40,836 nt of DNA from Coleofasciculaceae cyanobacterium. Lineage in GTDB: Bacteria > Cyanobacteriota > Cyanobacteriia > Cyanobacteriales > Xenococcaceae. Where the stretch lies: positions 1 to 40,836 of the forward strand of contig DATNPK010000013.1 in assembly GCA_036703275.1 (NCBI GenBank), read 5' to 3'. Under the pieces are notes generated by a model, which saw only the letters and a list, made by a program, of their open reading frames with translations, was not told the DNA's origin and did not search any database. Positions 29,515-31,472 of this stretch are shown here, one piece after another (position 1 is the first letter of the stretch; the number at the start of each line of letters is the position of its first letter). Both the position numbers and the translations under genes were made by a program.

Positions 29515-29540
29515 AATGTCATAAGTTTAAAATTGACACA
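29515..29540. repeat. 26-bp dyad copy 1 (left of MOSC gene)
   Basis: AATGTCA-N12-TGACACA with core TAAGTTTAAAAT. The left arm departs at two positions from the TGTGTCA consensus; the right arm is perfect. It lies about 230 bases upstream of the MOSC gene. Confidence 0.55.
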
Positions 29541-29596
29541 AGTATTGAGCAAATACTCAAATAATACCTATCATTCCTCAAAAGTAATAAGAAACT

Positions 29597-29662
29597 TGGT
29601 AGGTTGGGGAGCCACTGCGTTGCAGCAAGTGGCGTTAGAACAAAGCGTGAAACCCAACAAAA
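29597..29662. repeat. Small inverted-repeat element upstream of MOSC gene
   Basis: GGTTGGG at the left and CCCAACA at the right enclose GCCACTGCGTTGCAGCAAGTGGCG, itself nearly palindromic. This GC-rich patch in AT-rich DNA resembles short MITE-like repeats (TAGGTTGGG...CCCAAC) seen between cyanobacterial genes. Confidence 0.5.
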
Positions 29663-29768
29663 TCTTATAATCGTTCGGTTTCGTACCTCAACTACATACA
29701 ATTTAAAAAGAACTAGCGTTTGTGGATACTTCTGACTTCAATTGATAAATGTTAAATGTTATACAGTG

Positions 29769-30305
29769 ATGGGAAAAGTTATTGCGGTAAGTATTAATTC
29801 AAGCCACTCTTTTAGCAAATCAAATAGGGAAAAAATCAAGCTATTAGCCGGTTTAGGTGTGGAAGGAGACGCGCACTGTGGAAAGACAGTTAAACATCGA
29901 TCGCGCTTAGCTAAAAATCCGAAGCAACCTAATTTAAGACAGGTACATTTAATCCATGCTGAACTGCATGAAGAGTTAAATAATGCTGGATTTAATATTT
30001 TACCTGGTCAAATGGGAGAAAATATTACAACGATGGGGATTGATTTATTGGGGCTGCCTACTGATACGCTGTTGCATATAAAAGAAGCTGTAATTCAAAT
30101 AACAGGATTGCGAAATCCTTGCGCTCAACTAGACAATTTTAAACCAGGCTTAATGGCTGCGGTATTGGATCGAGATAAAGAGGGTAAGATAATTCGCAAA
30201 GCGGGGATTATGGGCATTGTATTAGCCAGTGGAGTGATATCTGCTGGAAACATTATACAAACAGAGTTTCCCTCCCTACCGCATCGACCGCTAGAAAAAG
30301 TTTAA
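29769..30305 (+). CDS. MOSC-domain protein
   Basis: About 178 residues. The MOSC beta-barrel marks are present: GLGVEGDAHCGKTVKHRSR, QVHLIHAELHEEL, PGQMGENITTMGIDLLGLP, and the conserved cysteine in ITGLRNPCAQLDNF. MOSC proteins bind molybdenum cofactor or carry sulfur for cofactor and thiol chemistry; which applies here is open. The frame is open from a TTG at 29742, but ATG 29769 (MGKVIAVS) gives the usual N-terminus. The stop is three bases before a TGTGTCA dyad, so the gene lies between dyad copies 1 and 2. Confidence 0.85.
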   Translation: MGKVIAVSINSSHSFSKSNREKIKLLAGLGVEGDAHCGKTVKHRSRLAKNPKQPNLRQVHLIHAELHEELNNAGFNILPGQMGENITTMGIDLLGLPTDTLLHIKEAVIQITGLRNPCAQLDNFKPGLMAAVLDRDKEGKIIRKAGIMGIVLASGVISAGNIIQTEFPSLPHRPLEKV

Positions 30306-30308
30306 ACA

Positions 30309-30334
30309 TGTGTCATTAGTTTATTTTTGACACA
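30309..30334. repeat. 26-bp dyad copy 2 (right of MOSC gene)
   Basis: Perfect TGTGTCA-N12-TGACACA with core TTAGTTTATTTT. It starts three bases after the MOSC stop codon. Confidence 0.75.
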
Positions 30335-30464
30335 ATAAAATAGACAAGCCGTTTCTCACAACGGTTCAATTTTGCGATTTGCTGGCTATTATTGTCCTGA
30401 CATAGCCGATTTACCTATTCAGCCAGCAATTAAAAGTATTTGAAATTGAGTATTAATCAACTTG

Positions 30465-30740
30465 CTATTTTGCCAATCCTTGTTTTGTGTCAGAATTAGA
30501 ATTTTGAAACATTTCATAGTAAGGAATATTATTCTTGAGGGCAAAATCACTTTTAGAAGAGTAAAAAGTACCGTTGCGATCGTGAAAAGCCCAATTAGTC
30601 GGGAACTGGATAATTGCCCCCATTGTCAAAGGAACACCAGATTGTTTTAAAGCCTTGATTCTTCTATGCAGTGTACTTCTAGATAAACCTGTTTCTTCAA
30701 TTAGCTGGCGATAAGTATATTTTTTGCCGTCAATCAACAT
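30465..30740 (-). CDS. Small helix-turn-helix protein
   Basis: 91 residues. The N-terminal third is a clear HTH (TYRQLIEETGLSRSTLHRRIKALKQSG). The rest (FPTNWAFHDRNGTFYSSKSDF...) is not recognised. Start ATG 30740. A perfect TGTGTCA-N12-TGACACA dyad ends-on at 30766-30791, 26 bases upstream of the start, where an operator would sit. Another copy overlaps the last codons (30486-30511). It is therefore a natural candidate for the protein that binds the dyads, but this is inference from position. Confidence 0.65.
   Translation of the reverse strand: MLIDGKKYTYRQLIEETGLSRSTLHRRIKALKQSGVPLTMGAIIQFPTNWAFHDRNGTFYSSKSDFALKNNIPYYEMFQNSNSDTKQGLAK
30486..30511. repeat. 26-bp dyad copy 3 (in 3' end of HTH gene)
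   Basis: TGTGTCA-N12-TGAAACA with core GAATTAGAATTT; one arm mismatch. It lies inside the coding end of the HTH gene. Confidence 0.65.
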
Positions 30741-30765
30741 GATATTTATTTTTATGTAATTGGGT

Positions 30766-30791
30766 TGTGTCAGGAGTTTAATTTTGACACA
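30766..30791. promoter_or_regulatory. 26-bp dyad copy 4 (upstream of HTH gene)
   Basis: Perfect TGTGTCA-N12-TGACACA with core GGAGTTTAATTT. It sits 26 bases before the HTH start codon, an operator-like position. Confidence 0.75.
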
Positions 30792-30902
30792 TTTGTCTAT
30801 ATTTGACTTTAAATTGCCTTAAACAAGCCTGAAGGATTCAAATTTATTAGTTAATCTCAATCCTATTTTGGAAGATTTGTTAAGAGCGAGCGCACAAGCT
30901 AA

Positions 30903-30928
30903 GGTGTCATATATTTAATTTTGAAACA
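30903..30928. promoter_or_regulatory. 26-bp dyad copy 5 (upstream of Dnd-associated gene)
   Basis: GGTGTCA-N12-TGAAACA with core TATATTTAATTT; one mismatch per arm. It lies 51 bases before the ATG of the Dnd-associated gene. Confidence 0.6.
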
Positions 30929-30978
30929 TATTTTATGATAATTGTGACTTATGTAGTAAACTAAACTATTTCGACAAT

Positions 30979-31446
30979 ATGGCATTACCTAGAATTAAAG
31001 TAGCCAAAGATAAAGCTGAATTAGTTCAAAAGCTTCTGGATACAACAGGGACAACAGGAGCATTTTCAACCTACGCAGATATCATTGCCTTTGCTGCGAG
31101 TTTGGGAGCAAAACATCAACAGCGATCGCGCCTTACTGAAATATCTCAAAGTGAACCTGCGCCAATCAGCCTCGAGATATTTATCTCTCGTGGTTACGAT
31201 CGCCTGATCAAATTACTTGCGGTAATAGCAACTCAAGACATTAAACTCTTATCTACAGAAGATCAAGCAGCAGAAGCAAAAAGAGTCCTAATTTTTGAAG
31301 AATACGCTAACGGCGGGCTAGAAAAGCTACTGGATGAACTAAGGGGTGCGGTAGACTATACCGAAAGATTAGTTTTAATTTTAAACGCCGAAAGATTTGT
31401 AACAGAGATTAATGATGAAGAATTCGATCTGAGCAGATTTCTTTAA
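30979..31446 (+). CDS. DNA phosphorothioation (Dnd)-associated protein 4
   Basis: 155 residues closely matching the Dnd-system-associated protein 4 family: IKVAKDKAELVQKL, STYADIIAFAASLGAKHQQR, PISLEIFISRGYDRLIKLLA, LIFEEYANGGLEKLLDELRG and DYTERLVLIL. Family members sit beside dndBCDE, which replace a non-bridging backbone oxygen by sulfur, but their own activity is not established. No other dnd gene is in this window, so it is an orphan here. The stop codon is directly followed by a TGTGTCA dyad, and another copy lies upstream. Start ATG 30979. Confidence 0.8.
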   Translation: MALPRIKVAKDKAELVQKLLDTTGTTGAFSTYADIIAFAASLGAKHQQRSRLTEISQSEPAPISLEIFISRGYDRLIKLLAVIATQDIKLLSTEDQAAEAKRVLIFEEYANGGLEKLLDELRGAVDYTERLVLILNAERFVTEINDEEFDLSRFL

Positions 31447-31472
31447 TGTGTCAAAGATTTAAAAATGACACA
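31447..31472. repeat. 26-bp dyad copy 6 (right of Dnd-associated gene)
   Basis: Perfect TGTGTCA-N12-TGACACA with core AAGATTTAAAAA. It begins at the base after the stop codon and is followed by an A-run. Confidence 0.75.

Follow-up and report, generated by a model that had tools for sequence, protein, structure and literature searches.

The nearest described kin of the system reported here are autoregulated, locally acting DNA-binding proteins, although the layout of its sites is unlike that of any described family known to us. The system lies in a 40,836-nucleotide contig of a Coleofasciculaceae cyanobacterium (GTDB family Xenococcaceae; assembly GCA_036703275.1, contig DATNPK010000013.1), which was analysed at its full length and is called the window. 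It consists of hth, a gene for a 91-residue protein with a winged helix-turn-helix (HTH) domain, and of six copies of a 26-bp dyad, TGTGTCA-N12-TGACACA, in and around that gene. Such sites, found both by the start of their presumed owner's gene and where convergent genes end, mostly share one direction and are lacking from genomes without that gene; we know of no usual regulon and no mobile element that they match. Literature searches returned nothing on this system, and among the matches listed for the arm sequence none was cyanobacterial by its title.

Small winged-helix regulators of the Lrp/AsnC type, such as PH1519 (PDB 2cyy), share the N-terminal HTH match and a dyad close upstream of their own gene, but the HTH protein has no matched ligand domain and many of the dyads stand away from other genes' promoters. 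Integron arrays, as generally understood, also carry directional dyads (attC) between variable and often small genes, sometimes directly after a stop codon; here, in contrast, no integrase gene was found nearby, the arms do not covary and the gene losses tested did not fall at the sites. The ParB-parS and RacA-ram systems, again as commonly known, likewise have clustered sites that tolerate changes in local gene content, but the HTH protein belongs to another family by Pfam, and its sites are few, asymmetric in the centre and confined to one bacterial family. In REP/RAYT elements, as they are usually described, dyads occur at convergent gene ends and copies bracket the associated gene, whereas hth encodes no catalytic Y1 (HUH) transposase domain, the stems show no covariation and the sites number a handful, not hundreds. 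CvkR is a MerR-type repressor of cyanobacterial CRISPR-associated transposon (CAST) elements (PMC9938897), and its likeness to the present case is that of a cyanobacterial HTH repressor. Among the 30 array proteins chosen for domain scans, by contrast, there were no CAST or Tn7-like domains. The CvkR operator is reportedly palindromic, and the site that it is said to bind differs from the dyad.

The six dyads of the window stand where the earlier note had placed them (Table 1), three perfect in both arms and three with one or two changes, and the gene borders it gave next to copies 2, 3 and 6 are likewise correct. When up to three mismatches are allowed, the window holds nine matches, of which the three outside the six have three mismatches each; dinucleotide shuffles of the window gave a mean of 1.09 matches and none of 100 reached nine, so the cluster is not given by chance. 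The earlier note had proposed a genome-wide scan, and at up to two mismatches this returned, from the 5.62 Mb of the same genome, the six copies and four two-mismatch sites on other contigs, about level with the three matches of a reversed-pattern control. All six window copies score higher in one common direction, copy 3 by only 1.4 bits.

The dyads travel with hth. The gene occurs in 20 of the 291 genomes of the order compared (denoted G with a number, the window's own being G000; stretches fetched from them are denoted L), every one within the window's own family of 27 genomes; a phylum-wide draw of 386 genomes contained it in two, both from the window's genus, and public records of relatives are named Xenococcaceae, Pleurocapsales, Xenococcus (including PCC 7305), Pleurocapsa and Myxosarcina. 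Strong dyads, with at most one mismatch, number two to seven in each of the 20 hth-bearing genomes, while the seven family genomes that lack hth have none in six cases and one in the seventh. As to linkage, 78 of the 90 strong sites were observed within the stretches fetched around hth. Of the remaining 12, some belong to contigs on which the array goes on (G217 contig 100, next to a DUF6262 gene; G019 contig 68, after dnd_assoc_4), others make up second clusters within G068, G263 and G162, and others again resemble background; 107 of the 291 genomes have some one-mismatch match, with no more than three per genome outside the family. The concentration of strong sites at hth is stated in terms of these one-mismatch counts and fetched stretches, not of a model search. 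When 40 loci were scanned for repeated dyads, the motif turned up in hth-bearing loci only (the window, L064, L070 and L114); the scan missed it in the short hth-bearing L104 and L116 and returned a few unrelated motifs.

The neighbouring dnd_assoc_4 gene was considered as an alternative owner and rejected: no dyad scoring at least 18 lies near it in five genomes without hth, nor in G162 and G263, where dnd_assoc_4 and hth are on separate contigs. The dyads go with hth and not with the MOSC or 'Dnd' gene. The earlier note had raised the possibility of a regulon of the local HTH protein, and one half of that idea, the protein as owner of the sites, is supported by co-occurrence and linkage (all 20 hth-bearing genomes have at least two strong sites, against 0 of the 7 without hth).

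Among 19 aligned HTH proteins (that of G120 not included), 41 columns are invariant, including GLSRSTLHRRI in the recognition region. By Pfam and PDB profile searches the first half of the protein matches winged HTH domains, Lrp/AsnC among them, and its N-terminal HTH matches 2cyy at E 4.8e-4. The best Pfam matches are HTH families, with no ParB domain among them; Pfam and PHROGs gave no transposase domain, the PHROGs matches being weak (E at least 0.012), and Foldseek matches to RacA and pSK1 Par were not significant (E 0.2 and 0.85). A phage, plasmid or viral origin of hth was rejected: no relatives of the protein were found in viral contigs, plasmids or phages at the thresholds used, nor did the stringent dyad pattern match in viral sequences.

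The site itself was defined from 99 copies with a matrix score of at least 20 at the 20 hth loci, lower-scoring sites being dropped. Their consensus, WWW-TGTGTCA-NWA-NTTTAA-WTT-TGACACA-WWW, extends the conserved length to about 32 bp, with three A/T-rich bases on each flank and an asymmetric NTTTAA centre. At arm pair 4/23, the variable one, the bases are complementary in 44 of the 99 sites against 45.2 expected, the remaining arm positions being nearly invariant, and this absence of covariation argues for a protein site on double-stranded DNA and against a folded strand. A hairpin or RNA reading was accordingly set aside; positions 28000-33000 of the window also gave no Rfam match at the gathering score. 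The idea that the arms carry outward −35 boxes, with TTGACA in the right one, was rejected as well, as the flank profile has no conserved −10 at a fitting distance.

The asymmetric centre gives the site a direction. Of 70 sites with a margin of at least 8 bits between directions, 67 are oriented opposite to the hth strand. The 34 sites distant from hth and dnd_assoc_4 were scored by a matrix built from the other 65, with no re-orienting, to limit circularity; 21 pointed the same way, five the opposite way and eight were undecided. The eight sites of the second G068 cluster, over 29 kb, and the three of G263 contig 221 also keep one direction, although the model search scored one of the former (site 32494) slightly better in reverse.

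Placement relative to genes is equally regular. A dyad lies upstream of hth in all 20 loci; its distance from the start is 14-33 bp in 19 of them (in G019 counted from the aligned Met) and, in G187, 89 bp. A second one lies in the last hth codons in 17 of the 20 genes checked, 229-232 nt from the start (244 nt from the called start in G019), and was not found in G120, G198 and G149. Other called genes contain the midpoint of none of the 99 sites, though two sites overlap a called MOSC start by 8 bp. Among interior gaps of at least 60 bp, a dyad is present in all 17 that touch hth and, of those that do not, in 7/7 convergent, 3/7 tandem and 1/8 divergent ones; gaps with a gene 3' end thus hold one in 10 of 14 cases against 1 of 8 for divergent gaps (Fisher p 0.024). 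These counts left out open reading frames (ORFs) shorter than 125 residues, unless hth or common to at least three loci, and one ORF overlapping hth in G227; the stricter form given here also omits end gaps and gaps below 60 bp. On the whole the observed layout does not look like that of promoter operators. The number of dyads does not simply track the number of genes. The abutment of dyad 6 on its stop codon, at 0 bp, recurs in G217, G135, G249 and G233, and the distance is 8-116 bp in several other genomes.

Xenococcus sp. PCC 7305 carries two clusters, and in the second of them four convergent gaps contain dyads. The second G068 cluster (contig 183; L239:6962-9758, L240:8199-15801) has eight dyads over 29 kb with no hth inside, and flanks a large gene block that by eye was taken for a non-ribosomal peptide synthetase; its genes are scattered across other genomes. 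Convergent gaps, 24% of the intergenic bases there, contain six of its eight sites (P 0.0035), and one further dyad overlaps a gene end that faces a convergent neighbour.

The reading that we prefer, tentatively and at a little under an even chance, is a self-contained protein-and-site system of the Xenococcaceae that combines autorepression with boundary sites. The 91-residue winged-helix protein, probably as a dimer, would bind the directional site of about 32 bp. Such binding is very likely, given the co-occurrence and linkage described above. Autoregulation of hth, an ordinary arrangement in itself, is likely too: a dyad directly upstream of the start codon, presumably at the promoter, would allow the protein to repress its own gene, and dyad 4 is the likely candidate for this site in the window. 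The other dyads, at transcription-unit borders around hth and chiefly where gene ends meet, might then be bound as boundaries, either as transcription roadblocks or as bridged insulators that would keep the variable genes of the region apart. This last step, to which placement points, is the weakest, and we consider it possible but somewhat doubtful. If the dyads do act as boundaries or terminators, bacteria would have insulator-like elements.

Several observations weigh against this combination of autorepression and boundaries. The contrast between convergent and divergent gaps depends on omitting the gaps that define array ends: when end gaps count, gaps of any length are admitted and the second cluster is set aside, a dyad is found in 11/12 convergent, 12/16 tandem and 6/10 divergent gaps. 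The 22 non-hth gaps of the stricter count stem from G217, G046, G268, G254 and G207 together with the second G068 cluster. The genes were called mechanically as ORFs, short unsupported ones among them overlap some dyads, and other dyads lie in long gaps with no called gene. The structure model of the protein is middling (pLDDT 74, pTM 0.49), and no clear match was seen for its second half. A model search for the dyad gave matches in 27 of 27 family genomes at E 0.5, including one at E 2e-4 in G175, which lacks hth; among the matches listed, others from genomes without hth were G276 (E 0.017) and G272 (E 0.022). hth is absent from two clades and from one genome that is 81% complete, and in a weakly supported dnd_assoc_4 tree, which includes five of the seven genomes without hth, these fall in two places, so that the absences of hth amount to few independent events; kinship among the genomes likewise means that the counts are not independent events. 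Finally, a roadblock requires no fixed direction, and the boundary reading leaves the directionality of the sites unexplained, which keeps a recombination rival alive. The direction is not universal: dyads point apart at two neighbours in G217 contig 100 and at two sites in G162 contig 137.

The most ordinary alternative is a local regulon in which the HTH protein represses itself and its neighbours while the extra dyads serve as auxiliary looping operators. The dyad just upstream of hth in 19 of 20 genomes, the dyads in the divergent gap between hth and dnd_assoc_4 and the six of ten other divergent gaps that hold a dyad once end gaps are counted are all consistent with it. We nevertheless regard it as rather unlikely, since interior gaps away from hth show the reverse preference, the surrounding genes vary and dyads stay after gene loss, and gene ends are also where most of the second G068 cluster is found; the other half of the earlier regulon idea, control of neighbouring genes in the usual way, seems to fit badly with the interior gaps. 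An architectural or centromere-like role, with the HTH protein loading onto the dyads and thereby shaping or anchoring the chromosome near hth, would suit a cluster that is centred on the presumed binder's gene, intergenic and indifferent to the genes present, and it would accommodate the second cluster of G068. It is improbable in view of the small number of sites, their restriction to one family, the lack of a ParB-like domain in Pfam, the insignificant RacA and pSK1 Par matches in Foldseek and the direction of the sites, which it does not explain.

The earlier note had also offered a cassette system, in which each gene is a unit with its own ends, and this idea is weakened. As recombination sites at which gene units are exchanged by a recombinase from elsewhere, the dyads would account for the variable genes between them, for the shared direction of most sites and for their abutment on stop codons. 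G233 and G249, moreover, have one dyad where the window has dyads 4 and 5, and in G233 alignments reach it from both sides, which fits excision or plain loss of one site. The other losses compared did not lie at the dyads: MOSC was lost from G019 and G227 by internal deletion with the dyads left in place (in G019 all but a 3' tail is gone, and the same 26 bases of dyad 2 are kept), and a DUF1186 difference between G263 and G068 is not bounded by dyads. Dyads thus persist after the adjoining gene is lost, centre bases vary between copies within one genome, and dyad number does not follow gene number. Nor was a suitable enzyme found nearby. The 40.8-kb hth contig of G000 has no PF00589 match at E 0.001, in G046 and G198 the sequence up to about 240 kb from hth is likewise free of them, and 47 recombinase sequences run against 411 ORFs revealed no intact recombinase in the 20 hth loci, some of only 5-8 kb; with the 87 ORFs of the second-cluster loci also searched, the only matches were an 83-residue fragment in the window and a TetR gene in G268. 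One recombinase is alike (81-87%) in G000, G046 and G198, which we take, from its length and conservation, for a Xer-type enzyme; it also occurs in G103 (75%) and G086 (55%), which lack hth, and none private to hth genomes was seen among the 50 of 77 PF00589 matches compared across the five genomes. Exchange at the dyads is quite unlikely; if it occurs, it would be a new cassette device. The related proposal that HTH-bound directional dyads mark self-contained gene modules, frequently in the form of divergent pairs (MocR with a pyridoxamine-oxidase-like enzyme, PNPOx; a flavin adenine dinucleotide (FAD)-binding enzyme with TetR), exchanged by a recombinase acting in trans, is a little-favoured, improbable variant and would amount to an integron-like device with no resident integrase. 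Relics of a mobile element, or REP-like repeats gathering in harmless convergent gaps, would agree with the convergent placement, with a DUF6262 gene near the array in several genomes and with the recombinase fragment 4 kb away in the window. We think this highly improbable, as the arms lack stem-like covariation, the array proteins scanned contain no transposase domain and most sites keep to the surroundings of hth and are missing from genomes without it; the suggestion that the dyads are transposase sites of a vanished element finds no support in the proteins scanned, in the placement of the strong sites or in phage, plasmid or viral relatives, of which none appeared at the thresholds used.

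Genes between or beside the dyads vary from genome to genome and include, besides the MocR/PNPOx and FAD-enzyme/TetR pairs, Nudix, GNAT, MOSC, TPR, multicopper oxidase with DUF411, Uma2, Na/Ca exchanger, DUF1186 and others. Close MOSC homologues (at least 59% identity) were seen in the family at no place but the arrays: five genomes have the gene intact, and G135 and G227 have remnants; five further genomes have MOSC matches of only 27-31%, elsewhere than at the array. The earlier label 'Dnd-associated' does not hold for the TIGR04062 (dnd_assoc_4) gene: it is present in 237 of the 291 genomes of the order and so is not Dnd-specific (Dnd core genes were not searched for), which makes the name 'DNA phosphorothioation-associated protein 4' misleading. 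The gene seems to be one that is common throughout the order, with no assigned function. The counterpart of dyad 1 in G019 is at L061:18809, with three mismatches.

Table 1. Dyads and genes of the hth array and its surroundings, in positions of the window.
Feature	Position	Strand	Remarks
Tyrosine recombinase fragment	25281-25532		83 residues; PF00589 E 2.1e-4, below cut-off
Dyad 1	29515-29540	+	outer end, upstream of MOSC; 2 mismatches
MOSC-domain gene (cargo)	29769-30305	+	between dyads 1 and 2; PF03473 E 2.3e-9
Dyad 2	30309-30334	+	MOSC/hth convergent gap, 3 bp after MOSC stop; 0 mismatches
hth, 91-residue winged-helix protein gene	30465-30740	-	ORF; PF13412 E 1.6e-7, PF08279 E 2.4e-6
Dyad 3	30486-30511	+	within last codons of hth; 1 mismatch
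Dyad 4	30766-30791	+	25 bp upstream of hth ATG; 0 mismatches
Dyad 5	30903-30928	+	divergent gap hth/dnd_assoc_4, 50 bp upstream of dnd_assoc_4 ATG; 2 mismatches
TIGR04062 (dnd_assoc_4) gene	30979-31446	+	between dyads 5 and 6; E 1.5e-54
Dyad 6	31447-31472	+	begins at base next to dnd_assoc_4 stop codon; 0 mismatches

The recombinase fragment lies about 4 kb from dyad 1, beyond an amylase gene; only 42 residues of the integrase profile are matched, 37 residues are 73% like a G046 recombinase, and it looks like a remnant. In G135, a run of TTACCTA-like units (L063:9820-9960, minus strand) stands between dnd_assoc_4 and its upstream dyad; G233 and G249, which are closely related, lack it.

Past the array's outer end, positions 28415-28975 hold a DUF6262 gene encoding an HTH and a coiled coil. 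DUF6262 is also found near the hth array in G019, G135, G268, G233, G149 and G244, with a broken copy in G046. Such genes are of the TnpC type of Tn554-like elements; on the contig beside DUF6262 there was no PF00589 match at E 0.001 that would indicate a Tn554-type element, only the fragment listed in Table 1. Just upstream of DUF6262, at 28983-29016, there is a perfect 14-bp inverted repeat with a 6-nt loop, and in G019 its arms differ by one compensatory pair (T-A to C-G), which suggests that it may be a real RNA hairpin.

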